Below are positions 613 to 8,029 of a stretch of DNA of 64,000 nt, piece after piece. The position numbers were made by a program, and so were the translations under genes. How positions within the stretch are numbered: position 1 is the first letter of the stretch; every line of letters begins with the position of its first letter. A model generated the notes under the pieces. It did not search any database. It saw only the letters and a list, made by a program, of their open reading frames with translations, and was not told where the DNA came from. This stretch comes from Anatilimnocola aggregata (lineage in GTDB: Bacteria > Planctomycetota > Planctomycetia > Pirellulales > Pirellulaceae): assembly GCF_007747655.1 (NCBI RefSeq), contig NZ_CP036274.1, positions 6,448,001 to 6,512,000 on the forward strand, in the 5' to 3' direction.

Positions 613-1332
613 ATGAGTACCTCTCCTACGCTTGACCGCGCGGTCGTCGAACAGATCGTTCGCCAACTCGTTTTGGGGGGCGCGACGAAATCTCCTGCCG
701 CTGAAACGGCTCCTGCTGCGTCCGGCAAAGTGCCCGAGTTGATCGTCAGCATTTCGGCCCGCCATTGCCACCTGAGCGATGCCGATGTCGAAACGCTGTT
801 TGGTCCCGGCGCTAAGCTGACCCCTGAGAAGGATCTGTATCAGGACGGTTTTTATGCGGCTGCCGAAACGGTGATGATCGTTGGTCCGCGCCGTCGCATG
901 TTGCCGAACGTGCGTGTGCTGGGACCGACCCGACCGTACAGCCAGGTCGAATTAGCTTTCACCGACAGCATCTCGCTGGGTATCGATGCTCCGGTTCGAC
1001 ATAGCGGCAACATCAAGGGAACACCGGGTTGCGTGCTGGTTGGCCCCAAGGGCGTAGTTGAATTGCAGGAAGGTGTGATTCGCGCTGCCCGCCACGTTCA
1101 CATGAACAACAAAGACGCCGAGCGCTATGGCGTGAAGAACGGCGACTTTATGAAGCTGCGGATCGAGTCGCCGCAATGCACGGTGGTTTTCGAAGACCTG
1201 CTGGTGCGGGCCGATGCGACGAGCAAGCTCGAAGTGCATATCGACACGGATGAAGGAAACGCTTGTTTCCTGGATGGTGCCACGAAGGTGGAACTGCAGC
1301 CTCAAGCTCACGACTGCAAGTGCAAACACTGA
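613..1332 (+). CDS. pduL: PduL-type phosphate acyltransferase of the microcompartment
   Basis: A 239-aa PduL-class phosphotransacylase that exchanges CoA for phosphate on the acyl-CoA made by the aldehyde dehydrogenase, regenerating CoA inside the organelle. Residues 1-22 form an amphipathic helix followed by an Ala/Pro-rich linker (about 24-40), which is the layout of a lumen-targeting encapsulation peptide. The two PduL beta-barrel halves follow, with the zinc-binding HCHLS motif at residues 51-55 and the second His cluster RHVHMNN at about 160-166. A Cys/His-rich tail (HDCKCKH) closes the protein. The start is the ATG 12 nt after the deoR stop. The expected substrate is lactyl- or propionyl-CoA, inferred from the neighbouring aldolase. 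The family assignment is secure. Confidence 0.95.
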
Positions 1333-3304: not shown

Positions 3305-3613
3305 ATGTTCGTCGCCAAAGTCACCGGCAGTCTGATTTCGACGCAGAAAGTAGCCACGATGGTGGGCTTCAAACTGCTCATCGTCGAGCCTTATCGCATT
3401 GAGCCGAAAGAACGCCAATCGCTGACGACCACAGGACGGACCTTTGTCGCGGTCGATACGCTCGGCGCGGGAATCGGCGATTACGTCATTTTGACTCAAG
3501 GTTCCAGCGCCCGTTTGACGCCAGAAACCAAGACACTTCCCATCGACGCCGTCGTGGTGGGAATTGTCGACAAAGTTCAAGTGGATGAAGGCACCGTGTA
3601 TTCACGGGACTAG
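3305..3613 (+). CDS. BMC-P pentameric shell vertex protein 1 (EutN/CcmL family)
   Basis: A 102-aa EutN/CcmL-family protein; pentamers of this family cap the twelve vertices of the shell. Family marks are the start MFVAKVTGSLIST, the KLLIVEPY strand, FVAVDTLGAGIGDYVIL in the core, and a C-terminal DAVVVGIVDKVQV. The ATG at 3305 follows the kinase stop by 5 nt and gives the usual family length. A longer in-frame version from 3221 would run back into the kinase gene and is not supported. It is the first of three pentamer genes in the operon. Confidence 0.96.
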   Translation: MFVAKVTGSLISTQKVATMVGFKLLIVEPYRIEPKERQSLTTTGRTFVAVDTLGAGIGDYVILTQGSSARLTPETKTLPIDAVVVGIVDKVQVDEGTVYSRD

Positions 3614-3665: not shown

Positions 3666-5105
3666 ATGCAAATCAACGAAGCTCTCATTCGCAGCGTGGT
3701 CGCACAGGTCCTTTCCGAGGTGGCCCGCACGGCGCACGTCTCCGGCCCCAAGTACGCCGGCCGTCACGGCATCTTCAGCGATGTGAACGAGGCCGTCGGT
3801 GCCGCTCGCGATGCCTTTGAGCAATTGAGCGAACGCAGTCTCGAAGATCGCAAACGCGTCATCAGCCATATTCGCCGCATCTCAATCGAGCAGTGCGTCG
3901 AACTCGGCACGATGGAAATGAACGAGACCAAGGTCGGCCGCCTCGATCACAAGATCGAAAAGCTGAAGACCCTGGGTGAAAAGACTCCGGGCGTGGAGTT
4001 CATGCGGAGCGAAGTTTTCAGCGGCGATCATGGCCTGGCCGTGATCGAGCATGCTCCGTTCGGTGTGATCGGCGCGATTACTCCCGTGACTCACTCGCTG
4101 CCGACCATCACCGGCAATGCGGTGAGCATGATCGCTTCGGGCAACTCGGTGGTCGTCAATCCGCACCCCAGTGGCAAGAAGGTCGCCGCGGAAGGTGTGC
4201 GTCGCTTTAACGAAGCCATTTATCGCGACCTGGGCATCGACAACCTGATCTGCGTCATCGTTGAGCCCACGCTGGAAACGGCGAATCAACTTTTCAGCCA
4301 CCGCAACATCAACATGATCTGCGTGACGGGCGGCCCAGCCGTCGGTCGGGCGGCACTTCGCTCGGGCAAGCGGGCGGTTGTTGCCGGACCAGGTAATCCG
4401 CCGGTCGTGGTTGATGAGACTGCTGATCTCGATAACGCGGCCCGGTGCATCATCACCGGTGCTGCGTACGACAATAATCTGCTCTGCATTGCCGAGAAGG
4501 AAGTCTTCGTCGTCGAGTCTGTCTTCGACAAGATGATGGCTGCCATGGAACGAGCCGGTGCTGCCCGCTTGAATGCTCGGGAAGTCGACGAGTTCACCAA
4601 GAAGGCGATCATCAAGGTCGGCGAAGGGGAGCACAAGCACGACGGACCTTCGAAGGAGTTTCTCGGTCAAGACGCCAAGGTGCTGGCCCGCGCGATCGGC
4701 AAGAGCATCGGCGAAAAGACCGACCTGCTGTTTGGCGAGACCGATGAAAGCAATCCCTTCGTACCTGTGGAACAAATGATGCCGTTCGTGCCGTTCATTC
4801 GCGTGAAAAACGTCGACGAAGCGATCATGAAGGCCAAGCACTACGAACATGGGTTCCGCCACACCAGCATCATTCATAGCCAGAACGTCAAGAACATGAC
4901 CCGCATGGGCCGGCTGCTCGATACGACGCTGTTCGTGAAGAACGGTCCTTGCATGGCAGCACTGGGCCTTGGTGGTGAAGGCTACTTGTCATTCTCCATC
5001 GCTGGCCCGACTGGCGAGGGCGTGACAACTCCCCTCACCTTCACCCGCGAACGTCGCTGCTCGCTGATTGAAGATCTGTGGATCCTCGGTCGTCCCAAGT
5101 CGTAG
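3666..5105 (+). CDS. CoA-acylating aldehyde dehydrogenase (PduP/EutE-like), microcompartment cargo
   Basis: A 479-aa acylating aldehyde dehydrogenase that converts an aldehyde, CoA and NAD+ into acyl-CoA and NADH. Residues 1-20 form an amphipathic helix (NEALIRSVVAQVLSEV) separated from the catalytic domain by a short linker, the expected N-terminal encapsulation peptide. The catalytic domain has the acylating-ALDH proline/Thr-rich segment GAITPVTHSLPT (about 137-148), the VTGGPAVG nucleotide loop (220-227) and the catalytic Cys at 274 in NNLLCIAEK. In PVM microcompartments this enzyme is thought to use L-lactaldehyde from the aldolase. It sits between two pentamer genes. Confidence 0.95.
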   Translation: MQINEALIRSVVAQVLSEVARTAHVSGPKYAGRHGIFSDVNEAVGAARDAFEQLSERSLEDRKRVISHIRRISIEQCVELGTMEMNETKVGRLDHKIEKLKTLGEKTPGVEFMRSEVFSGDHGLAVIEHAPFGVIGAITPVTHSLPTITGNAVSMIASGNSVVVNPHPSGKKVAAEGVRRFNEAIYRDLGIDNLICVIVEPTLETANQLFSHRNINMICVTGGPAVGRAALRSGKRAVVAGPGNPPVVVDETADLDNAARCIITGAAYDNNLLCIAEKEVFVVESVFDKMMAAMERAGAARLNAREVDEFTKKAIIKVGEGEHKHDGPSKEFLGQDAKVLARAIGKSIGEKTDLLFGETDESNPFVPVEQMMPFVPFIRVKNVDEAIMKAKHYEHGFRHTSIIHSQNVKNMTRMGRLLDTTLFVKNGPCMAALGLGGEGYLSFSIAGPTGEGVTTPLTFTRERRCSLIEDLWILGRPKS

Positions 5106-5198: not shown

Positions 5199-5459
5199 AT
5201 GCAACTCGGCCTCGTCATTGGTACCGCGATCGCAACGGCGAGACACTCGTCGTTCAAAGGGCAGAAAATGCTCATCGTGCAGCCGTTGATGGCCGATGGC
5301 CGCACCCCCGACGCTGATCCTGTGATTGCCGCTGATGTAGTCGGCGCTGGTCGCGGAGAAGTCGTCATGATCACCAGCGACGGTAAATACGTCCGCGAAA
5401 TCACGCAGGATGAATCGACGCCGATTCGCTGGTCGATCATCGGAATTCAAGACAGTTAA
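5199..5459 (+). CDS. BMC-P pentameric shell vertex protein 2
   Basis: An 86-aa minimal EutN/CcmL-type pentamer protein. It opens MQLGLVIGTAIAT, continues with KMLIVQPL, has VVGAGRGEVVMITSDGKYVRE in the conserved nucleus, and ends in the strand WSIIGIQD. It is the shortest and most canonical of the three pentamers. It begins 15 nt after the long inverted repeat, with no strong Shine-Dalgarno sequence immediately before the ATG, so translation may depend on RNA structure there. The next gene follows after 5 nt. Confidence 0.95.
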   Translation: MQLGLVIGTAIATARHSSFKGQKMLIVQPLMADGRTPDADPVIAADVVGAGRGEVVMITSDGKYVREITQDESTPIRWSIIGIQDS

Positions 5460-5464
5460 TCGCA

Positions 5465-5743
5465 ATGAACTTATCCCCCGCCGACATCGACCGAATTGTG
5501 GCTGAAGTGGTTCGCCGCCTGCGACCACTGCTGGCTGCGTCGCCCGCTGCGCCGGTGGAGAAGTCGAACGAATTGAAGTTGAACGACAAGGTCGTCACCC
5601 TGCGCACCTTGCATGGCCGGCTGGAGGGCATCAGCCGCCTCATCGTCGATCAGCGCGCCGTGGTCACGCCTGCAGTGAAAGACGAACTGCGACAGCGTGG
5701 CATTTCCTGGGAACGATCCACCACCAACCAGGCGAGGGGCTAA
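5465..5743 (+). CDS. Small microcompartment-associated protein with encapsulation-peptide-like N-terminus
   Basis: A 92-aa protein of unknown function lodged between two pentamer genes (5 nt and 3 nt gaps), so it is almost certainly co-translated with them. Residues 2-23 (SPADIDRIVAEVVRRLRPLL in essence) predict an amphipathic helix like those that target PduL and the aldehyde dehydrogenase to the lumen. An Ala/Pro linker (24-31) follows. The remainder, about 35-85, holds TLHGRLEGISRLIVDQ and then VVTPAVKDELRQRGI. The last segment recalls a TPxAxDxLRxRGI stretch that I associate with some other microcompartment proteins, a resemblance from memory. A small protein at this place is a recurrent part of PVM loci. 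A scaffold, assembly or cargo-bridging role is possible but unproven. Confidence 0.85.
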   Translation: MNLSPADIDRIVAEVVRRLRPLLAASPAAPVEKSNELKLNDKVVTLRTLHGRLEGISRLIVDQRAVVTPAVKDELRQRGISWERSTTNQARG

Positions 5744-5746
5744 CCA

Positions 5747-6043
5747 ATGCGCATCGCCAAAGTTGTGGGCACCGTCACCATGAGTACTCAGCATCCCACG
5801 ATGCAAGGCGCTCGGTTGCGGCTGATTGTTCCGCTGTCGCTCGCTGAACTTCGTGATGGCATTGATCCGCAGGCCGACGAAATCGTCGCCTGGGACGAAC
5901 TCGGCGCCGGGATCGGCAGCCTGGTCGCAATCAGCGAAGGTGCTGAAGCGGCCCAACCATTCCGCCCCAACTACAAACCGATCGACGTCTATATTTCTGC
6001 GATTCTCGACCAGGTCGATATCGATCAAAAACTGCTCCGCTAA
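5747..6043 (+). CDS. BMC-P pentameric shell vertex protein 3
   Basis: A 98-aa EutN/CcmL-family protein: MRIAKVVGTVTMST at the start, then RLRLIVPLSLAEL, the conserved EIVAWDELGAGIGSLVAISEG nucleus, and a C-terminal VYISAILDQVDID strand. It is longer than pentamer 2 by a loop between the second and third strands. Having three different pentamer genes and no trimeric (tandem BMC) shell gene is the described pattern of PVM-type shells. It follows the 92-aa orphan by 3 nt. Confidence 0.96.
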   Translation: MRIAKVVGTVTMSTQHPTMQGARLRLIVPLSLAELRDGIDPQADEIVAWDELGAGIGSLVAISEGAEAAQPFRPNYKPIDVYISAILDQVDIDQKLLR

Positions 6044-6090: not shown

Positions 6091-6972
6091 ATGCTCAATC
6101 ATCACAAAATCAAGCAGGACATCTGCGAGATCGGACGCCGCCTGTACAACAAGGGCTTTGCCGCCGCCAACGACGGCAACATCACGGTTCGCGTGGGCGA
6201 GAACGAAGTTCTTTGCACGCCGACCATGCACAGCAAGGGCTTCCTCAAGCCGGACGATATCTCGCTGGTCGATATGACCGGCAAGCAACTCTCCGGTCGC
6301 AAGAAGCGTTCGAGCGAAGCGCTGTTGCACCTCGAAATTTACAAGCAGCGGCCCGACGTAAAGAGCGTCGTCCACTGCCATCCGCCACACGCCACCGCGT
6401 TCGCCATCGCCCGCGAACCGATTCCGCAGTGCGTGCTGCCCGAAGTCGAAGTGTTCCTCGGCGATGTGCCGATCACCACTTACGAAACTCCCGGCGGTCA
6501 GGCCTTCGCCGATACCGTGCTGCCGTTCGTCAGCAAGACGAACGTCATCATCCTCGCCAACCACGGCACGGTCAGTTACGGAGTCGATGTCGAGCAGGCC
6601 TATTGGTGGACCGAAATCCTCGACGCGTATTGCCGCATGCTCATGCTGGCCAAGAGCCTGGGCCGTGTGAACTACTTCGACGAGACGAAGGAACGCGAAC
6701 TGCTAGACCTGAAGCAGAAGTGGGGCTGGTCCGATCCGCGCAATACGCCCGAGTACAAAAACTGCGACATCTGCGCCAACGACATCTTCCGCGACAGTTG
6801 GAAGCAATCGGGCGTCGAGCGGAAGGCCTTTGAAGCTCCGCCGGCAATGGGTCCAAGCGTCGCCGCAGCCGTGAAAAAAGAAGTCGCTGCTGCTCCTGCC
6901 GGCGGCGATCAAGAGGCGCTGATCAAGATGATTACCGAACGCGTGATGGAAGCGCTGGCGGCCGGAAAGTAG
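6091..6972 (+). CDS. Class II aldolase (fuculose/rhamnulose-phosphate aldolase type), microcompartment cargo
   Basis: A 293-aa zinc aldolase of the AraD/FucA family. Zinc-ligand motifs are HCHPPHAT (about residues 93-100) and the later His in LANHGTVSYG. The early segment GFAAANDGNITVRV is the substrate-phosphate loop of the family. The catalytic domain ends near residue 225. An Ala-rich linker and a terminal amphipathic helix (EALIKMITERVMEALAAG) follow, that is, a C-terminal encapsulation peptide. In the studied planctomycete organelle this enzyme cleaves L-fuculose-1-phosphate and L-rhamnulose-1-phosphate to DHAP and L-lactaldehyde. The first half is close enough to FucA to expect the same. 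Kinase and isomerase genes for the upstream steps are not in the window. Confidence 0.94.
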   Translation: MLNHHKIKQDICEIGRRLYNKGFAAANDGNITVRVGENEVLCTPTMHSKGFLKPDDISLVDMTGKQLSGRKKRSSEALLHLEIYKQRPDVKSVVHCHPPHATAFAIAREPIPQCVLPEVEVFLGDVPITTYETPGGQAFADTVLPFVSKTNVIILANHGTVSYGVDVEQAYWWTEILDAYCRMLMLAKSLGRVNYFDETKERELLDLKQKWGWSDPRNTPEYKNCDICANDIFRDSWKQSGVERKAFEAPPAMGPSVAAAVKKEVAAAPAGGDQEALIKMITERVMEALAAGK

Positions 6973-7081: not shown

Positions 7082-8029
7082 ATGAAAGTTTCCATCATTG
7101 GCGGCGGCGGTTTGGTTGGCTCGAGCGCGGGCTTTGCGCTGCAATGCGGCGGCGTCGTCAGCGAGATCGCACTCCTCGACGTGAACGCGGAACTGGCGAG
7201 TGGCCAGGCCCTCGACATGCTGCACGGCGCGCCAAGCGTGGCCGATCAAGTCATTACCTCGGGCGGCTACGAGCACATTCCGAGTTCCGACATCATCTGC
7301 ATCACGGCAGGTCTGCGTCGCAAGCCCGATGAAAGCCGCCTCGATCTGATCAATCGCAACACCGATCTGTTTGTCGGCATTCTCAACGAAGTGATCAAGG
7401 CCGGCGTCAAGAAGGATGCAATTGTCGTTGTGGTGTCGAACCCAGTCGACATTCTCACCTATGTCGCTGCCGATCGTCTGGGCCTGCCGCTGAGCCAGGT
7501 GATTGGTCTCGGCACGCAGCTCGATACCATTCGCTTCCGCAGCTTGATCGCGCAGCAAATGAAGGCCTCGCCGACGCAAGTCCAGGCGCTCATCCTCGGT
7601 GAGCACGGCGATAGCATGGTGCCAATCTGGTCGAGCGCTTGCATCGCGAATCTTCCACTGGAGAAGTTTCCGGGCTGGAGTCCCAAGCTGGCCGACGAGC
7701 TCTTCACGCGCACCAAGGGCTCGGGCGCGGAAGTGATCAAGAAGAAGACCGGGGCCGGTTTTGCCGTGGGCATCGCCATCCGCGACGTGATTCATTCGAT
7801 CGTGCTCGATCAGCAACGCATTCTGCCGGTGAGCAGCGTGCAAGAAGGTTGCTACGACATTCGCGATGTCGCCCTCAGCGTACCGACTGTGGTTGGCCGC
7901 AAGGGTGTGGTCGCTCGCCACCAGATCGAACTCTGGCCGAAGGAAGTTCAACTCCTGCGCAAGAGCGGGCTAGTTCTGCGTCAAACATTGGAAACTGTCC
8001 TGGCCCGAATTGGCCGGCAGAAGAAATAG
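7082..8029 (+). CDS. Lactate/malate dehydrogenase family enzyme
   Basis: A 315-aa NAD-dependent 2-hydroxyacid dehydrogenase of the LDH/MDH fold. The nucleotide loop is IIGGGGLVGSSAG (residues 5-17), the active-site loop ITAGLRRKPDESRLDL is at about 78-93, VVSNPVD follows, and the proton-relay His is in GEHGDSMVP. At the residue that separates LDH (Gln) from MDH (Arg), the loop has Arg, although the following ESRLDL looks like an LDH. It is the last gene of the operon. I see no clear targeting helix at either end, so it may be cytosolic or enter by another route. It could oxidise lactate leaving the pathway or balance NADH; sequence alone does not decide. Confidence 0.92.
   Translation: MKVSIIGGGGLVGSSAGFALQCGGVVSEIALLDVNAELASGQALDMLHGAPSVADQVITSGGYEHIPSSDIICITAGLRRKPDESRLDLINRNTDLFVGILNEVIKAGVKKDAIVVVVSNPVDILTYVAADRLGLPLSQVIGLGTQLDTIRFRSLIAQQMKASPTQVQALILGEHGDSMVPIWSSACIANLPLEKFPGWSPKLADELFTRTKGSGAEVIKKKTGAGFAVGIAIRDVIHSIVLDQQRILPVSSVQEGCYDIRDVALSVPTVVGRKGVVARHQIELWPKEVQLLRKSGLVLRQTLETVLARIGRQKK

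Follow-up and report, generated by a model that had tools for sequence, protein, structure and literature searches.

A short helix-module protein in a planctomycete PVM-type microcompartment operon, a candidate luminal adaptor with likeness to PduM

PduM of propanediol-utilisation microcompartments (TIGR04493 / PF15953), among the least understood proteins of metabolosome assembly, has an N-terminal encapsulation helix, a middle domain of about 100 residues and a C-terminal module, lacks a catalytic domain, and is encoded directly upstream of a BMC-P gene, pduN. Its signal helix is sufficient for targeting to the core, and its loss leaves core and shell partly separate and some organelles oversized (PMC12108088, PMC9132943), the same two studies disagreeing on whether PduM bridges to PduB. 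No homologue is said to exist outside Pdu organelles (PMC12108088). A comparable architecture—an encapsulation-like N-terminal helix, a middle domain of about 120 residues and a C-terminal module—belongs to TIGR02536 of Gram-positive eut operons, also encoded directly upstream of a BMC-P gene (EutN-type). In the Listeria eut locus, for example, the TIGR02536 protein (L200:4529-5385) is built helix-middle-module like PduM and lies between eutD and the EutN-type pentamer gene. CcmN of beta-carboxysomes likewise joins an encapsulation peptide, through a linker, to a core-binding part, its peptide being C-terminal and shell-binding; the protein described here resembles it in the concept of the linker, and no sequence relation is claimed. 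The comparison with a CcmN-type linker has been drawn previously (PMC9132943).

The window analysed is a 64,000-nucleotide stretch of the Anatilimnocola aggregata genome (NZ_CP036274.1, positions 6,448,001 to 6,512,000). It carries an operon in the order DeoR regulator, PduL, two BMC-H, acetate kinase and BMC-P, followed by a CoA-acylating aldehyde dehydrogenase (AldDH), BMC-P, a gene for a 92-residue protein, BMC-P, class II aldolase and lactate/malate dehydrogenase. All gene types of the PVM locus definition (PMC4207490) were found, and the locus is a PVM-type fucose/rhamnose microcompartment operon. The features referred to below are as follows.

613..1332, + strand, PduL phosphotransacylase, with an N-terminal encapsulation-peptide-like helix at 640-690
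1417-1716 and 1771-2037, + strand, two BMC-H genes of the same PVM locus
2094 (ATG) to 3299, + strand, acetate kinase of the same PVM locus
3305-3613, + strand, BMC-P 1 of the same PVM locus
3666..5105, + strand, AldDH, with an N-terminal encapsulation-peptide-like helix at 3681-3731
5199..5459, + strand, BMC-P pentamer 2 (EutN/CcmL family), 5 nt before the 92-residue gene
5465..5743, + strand, 92-residue helix-module gene, short form (open reading frame; homologues in the same slot)
5477..5527, + strand, N-terminal amphipathic, encapsulation-peptide-like helix, residues 5-21 (AlphaFold, conservation, profile test)
5528..5578, + strand, variable Ala/Pro-type linker, residues 22-38 (8-68 residues in relatives)
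5579..5716, + strand, predicted beta-alpha-beta-alpha-beta module with T-P-x(3)-D motif, residues 39-84 (AlphaFold, profile-profile comparison)
5717..5740, + strand, unconserved tail, with a degenerate RpiB domain at the same point in most relatives
5747..6043, + strand, BMC-P pentamer 3, a conserved neighbour 3 nt past the 92-residue gene
6091..6972, + strand, class II aldolase, the signature enzyme, with a C-terminal encapsulation-peptide-like helix at 6916-6966
7082..8029, + strand, lactate/malate dehydrogenase-like gene, with which the conserved locus ends

Read within the window, the 92-codon frame at 5465-5743 (+) starts with ATG, and its coordinates agree with the earlier description of a gene between two pentamer genes, at gaps of 5 and 3 nt. 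That description, of a helix, an Ala/Pro linker and a compact part with no catalytic domain, holds for the protein as well, except at its end: the compact part does not finish at VVTPAVKDELRQRGI, as had been stated, but continues through SWER and an unconserved tail. No family in Pfam or NCBIfam matched the protein above cut-off. The cluster of Planctopirus limnophila comprises pvmABDEGHIJKLMNO, with pvmA the DeoR regulator (PMC11958385), and gene order makes the 92-residue gene the presumed counterpart of pvmL.

The gene is widely kept. Searched with the 92-residue protein, 98 related genomes yielded matches in 87, the weakest of these matches perhaps being due to chance; where the whole locus was inspected, in 20 of the matching genomes, gene order was the same in all 20 and the family gene always lay between BMC-P 2 and BMC-P 3 (20/20). 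Independently of these, 80 named genome loci were collected with the aldolase as bait; they yielded a family homologue in all 78 planctomycete PVM loci reaching far enough upstream (in three of these the gene was only partly recovered), the two loci without one (L122 and L144) both being cut off by a contig end. With homologues present in 20/20 genomes and 78/78 named loci, conservation of the slot is beyond chance, and the slot is identical in other classes of the phylum. Within the protein, mean pairwise identity was 40% for the helix and 39% for the module, against 15% for the linker and 12% for the tail. In one genus (that of G184 and G202; L173, L201-L208) the pvm genes are dispersed over the genome rather than gathered in one operon; G184 and G202 retain the family gene despite this scattering.

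AlphaFold placed a helix at residues 6-19, at low confidence (pLDDT 50-60). The earlier note had made its reading depend on conservation of this helix in orthologues, and the helix is conserved, residues V12, V15 and L19 each being at least 90% conserved in the family alignment. Its proposed likeness to the encapsulation peptides of PduL and AldDH was borne out quantitatively: a 17-column profile, made from this family alone, was scored against every terminus of the locus and, as background, against 696 unrelated N-termini taken from ORFs next to the loci, and in this locus PduL, AldDH and the aldolase C-terminus stood out (0-4 background sequences scored as high), while the shell proteins, acetate kinase and lactate dehydrogenase did not. 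PduM of Klebsiella and Salmonella, Listeria TIGR02536 and E. coli EutE exceeded all 696 background N-termini; Listeria PduM failed, so that two of the three PduM sequences scored passed (four of the five PduM sequences lay outside any training). About half of the N-termini from SPU-type loci, introduced below, scored likewise. In a PDB search with the family profile, the matches after RpiB were the N-termini of EutC, the ethanolamine ammonia-lyase light chain, and of the diol dehydratase gamma chain (PduE-type), both from microcompartment enzymes and, at E 0.08-0.27, only suggestive. The 92-residue protein thus carries, by AlphaFold, profile and PDB matches, an amphipathic terminal helix of encapsulation type, as expected of encapsulated cargo, and is presumably encapsulated. 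Two sister PVM loci encode long-form relatives (L143:6935-7636 and L151:2849-3478) with the module and an RpiB-like domain and without the N-terminal helix, and the helix is therefore not strictly essential everywhere.

The module (residues 39-84, ~46 residues) was modelled as beta-alpha-beta-alpha-beta at pLDDT 85-91, and only T68, P69 and D73 are invariant or nearly so. When 55 family members were scanned against 18,950 NCBIfam models, the models matched by most members were TIGR02536 (24/55) and two PduM models (13/55 and 11/55; best E 2.5e-5 and 1.5e-5); further matches were to RpiB, from long forms, and in four members to EutQ. Profile-profile comparison aligned residues 30-85 with PduM 106-162 (hhalign E 2.6e-7) and also matched EutT (E 3.6e-6) and the Listeria TIGR02536 protein (hhalign E 2e-6). 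Because such E-values are for single comparisons, controls were run: the scores of 50 (PduM), 45 (EutT) and 44 (TIGR02536) compare with maxima of 26 among 134 unrelated ORFs and 19 among 100 shuffles. Single PduM sequences, unlike the five-row alignment, gave weaker results, one of five scoring above the controls; these sequences were annotated records. Profile similarity therefore indicates a common ancestry for the module, the C-terminal ends of PduM and TIGR02536, and the EutT N-terminus. The N-terminus of EutQ, as a single sequence, did not rise above the controls, and kinship with EutQ, whose model matched four members, is likely but unproven. In E. coli, EutQ (L171:17303-18004) and EutT (L171:16503-17306) both start with a module-like stretch, and solved EutQ structures cover the cupin part only. 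In a Foldseek search with the 92-residue model, even the best PDB match fell short of significance (E 0.16), and a sequence search of the PDB returned no solved structure covering the module in any module-bearing protein. The T-P motif helix also gave a single weak match to the E3-binding domains of dehydrogenase complexes, which was dropped.

Kinship of the module does not make the protein a PduM. Against TIGR04493 it scored 12.1 bits (E 0.13), the curated cut-off being 50 bits, and where PduM has its middle domain it has a 17-residue linker; with a full-length score so far below cut-off and the middle domain missing, it is not a member of PduM proper. TIGR02536 matched residues 41-80 only (17.1 bits, E 0.0033, below the 152.6-bit cut-off), and its middle domain, too, is absent. 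What the 92-residue protein has in common with both is the terminal helix, the C-terminal module and a gene directly upstream of a BMC-P gene, and with PduM also the lack of a catalytic domain. The pduM-pduN and TIGR02536-EutN gene pairs are adjacent, in the same order and 3-15 nt apart, and whichever operon was examined, pdu, Listeria eut or PVM, a pentamer gene comes immediately after the helix-module gene or its counterpart. The upstream neighbour of the counterpart in pdu and eut is the phosphotransacylase gene or a gene close to it.

Treated by itself the protein had seemed an isolated oddity, a picture that its relatives correct: it belongs, as a short form, to a conserved family in which the chain usually ends in a catalytically dead RpiB domain. 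Short relatives (about 80-120 residues) are a minority, most being 195-280 residues long and consisting of helix, linker and module, as in the short form, followed by a second, C-terminal domain. This second domain gave weak scores with RpiB models, and in an AlphaFold model of the long form (mean pLDDT 86 over the domain) its top structure matches were only RpiB/LacAB (against 6fxs, Z 14.9 and 2.5 A over 132 residues; next unrelated fold, Z 7.0). The RpiB catalytic Cys, GTG loop and His, judged by reference to the true RpiB of the same genome and to an E. coli sequence, were kept in 0 of 101 PVM-type long-form sequences, some of which come from the same genomes; given their absence in 101/101, the domain is a pseudoenzyme domain. 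The RpiB/LacAB (PF02502) fold is absent from the 92-residue protein, and a search for a separate gene with the lost domain led to one ordinary RpiB, far away in the genome. A comparison of the RpiB-like domain with the middle regions of PduM and TIGR02536 gave no sign of homology, and PduM has no domain order in common with the long form.

The same family profile recovered helix-module-RpiB proteins from other planctomycetes, in loci with BMC-P and DeoC. These are SPU-type microcompartment loci (PMC4207490, PMC8217296), and their RpiB is the closest relative of the PVM long form, with the same helix-module order, BMC-P neighbours and position upstream of an aldolase. In PVM and SPU loci alike the family gene lies among pentamer genes, upstream of the aldolase, which is DeoC (deoxyribose) in SPU and the class II aldolase in PVM loci. 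The SPU proteins differ in that most copies keep the RpiB domain, its catalytic loop (D/V-D-G-x-G-x-G type in 17/20) and a His-Asn motif ([RK]-x-H-N). In SPU-type loci L184-L199, L178-L180 and L183 the RpiB gene was seen between BMC-P genes and upstream of DeoC, and in many SPU RpiB the GTG loop carries Asp where the catalytic Cys would normally stand.

The simplest history, and a likely one, runs from an encapsulated RpiB enzyme through the PVM pseudoenzyme and loss of its domain to a bare helix-module protein. On a tree of AldDH plus aldolase from 90 loci (a quick tree, with some long branches), the short form needs six changes by parsimony, at least four of which are forced by strongly supported branches. 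All outgroups being long, these changes are read as domain losses; with the direction resting on the outgroups, the RpiB-like domain appears to have been lost at least four independent times. Helix and module were retained in every domain loss.

The best label for the 92-residue protein is a helix-module adaptor of PVM organelles, like PduM, and not RpiB. By analogy with PduM, we favour with moderate confidence an adaptor without catalytic activity that works in the lumen of the PVM microcompartment. The N-terminal helix would enter the core of enzymes through helix-helix packing of the kind used by the AldDH, PduL and aldolase encapsulation peptides, the flexible linker would reach outward from the core, and the C-terminal module would make a second contact, probably at or near a pentamer vertex or with another core protein. 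Core and shell would thereby be coupled, and organelle size set; both the coupling role and the partner of the module are proposed from the PduM comparison. In a mirror-tree analysis the residual correlation, weak throughout, was strongest with PduL, BMC-P 3 and AldDH and lacking with BMC-H; on the strength of this and of BMC-P adjacency, our guess is that the module touches the vertex or the core enzymes. The earlier note had offered a scaffold, an organiser or an enzyme-core nucleator. The first two agree with the kinship to PduM, without which core and shell come partly apart (PMC9132943, PMC12108088); the nucleator has no specific support, PduM being a low-abundance protein that acts on core-shell coupling and on the size of the organelle.

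Two other roles are each appreciably less probable than that of an adaptor, though not negligible. The protein could assist the adjoining BMC-P proteins, either as a chaperone of their assembly or as a cofactor at the vertex, its helix serving for co-packaging only. Its gene is invariably followed at once by a BMC-P gene, in PVM loci as in those of pdu and Listeria eut, and in SPU loci it lies between BMC-P genes; this arrangement and the residual rate correlation with BMC-P 3 suit such a partner, but adjacency may reflect dosage or operon history, and PduM co-localises with the core, not the shell, once the two are separated (PMC9132943). Alternatively, and with about the same modest probability, the module may cross-link core enzymes (for example AldDH and PduL) and make no shell contact. 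The module also forms part of core proteins for which a tether to the shell is unnecessary (EutT, SPU RpiB and, weakly, EutQ), and the rate correlations with PduL and AldDH point the same way; deletion of PduM, however, uncouples shell and core and does not disperse the core (PMC12108088).

Less probable still is that the gene is an evolutionary leftover, a remnant of the encapsulated RpiB enzyme carried in the operon to no purpose. Clear descent from a helix-module-RpiB protein, loss of the catalytic residues (101/101), repeated loss of the domain and rapid divergence (59% identity with the homologue from the same genus, against about 90% for neighbouring genes) would be expected of a remnant. 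A useless gene should also be lost or broken in some lineages, however, whereas this one is never missing in the 78 loci, was kept after the operon scattered, and conserves its helix and module while the linker drifts. That the protein is an overlooked enzyme, or a luminal regulator that binds a ligand, as the near-invariant T-P-x(3)-D motif might suggest, is very improbable: T68, P69 and D73 are the only (nearly) invariant residues of the module, there is no pocket-sized domain, and the motif recurs in PduM, which has no known activity.

Should the adaptor reading be true, PduM would be part of a wider set of helix-plus-module proteins, of which the planctomycete protein would be a minimal version, with a nonessential domain removed several times by nature. 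Core-shell coupling could then be tested with a protein of 92 residues, partly in P. limnophila, which is genetically tractable (PMC11958385), and the protein would offer a compact part for engineering synthetic microcompartments. A wider proposal, which we put forward tentatively and think rather doubtful, sees in the module a general building block of microcompartments. Shared by PduM, TIGR02536, EutT, SPU RpiB, the present family and, weakly, EutQ, it would tether proteins of the lumen at the same docking site, for which the pentamer vertex is the likeliest place. In that event the PVM protein would illustrate the stepwise conversion of an encapsulated enzyme into a dedicated core-shell adaptor.

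The pentamer genes on either side of the 92-residue gene (5199-6043 in the window) are themselves fast-evolving, BMC-P 2 and BMC-P 3 diverging ~2x faster than BMC-P 1 and ~4x faster than BMC-H (mean distances across loci: BMC-P 2, 0.70; BMC-P 3, 0.86; BMC-P 1, 0.36; BMC-H, about 0.2).
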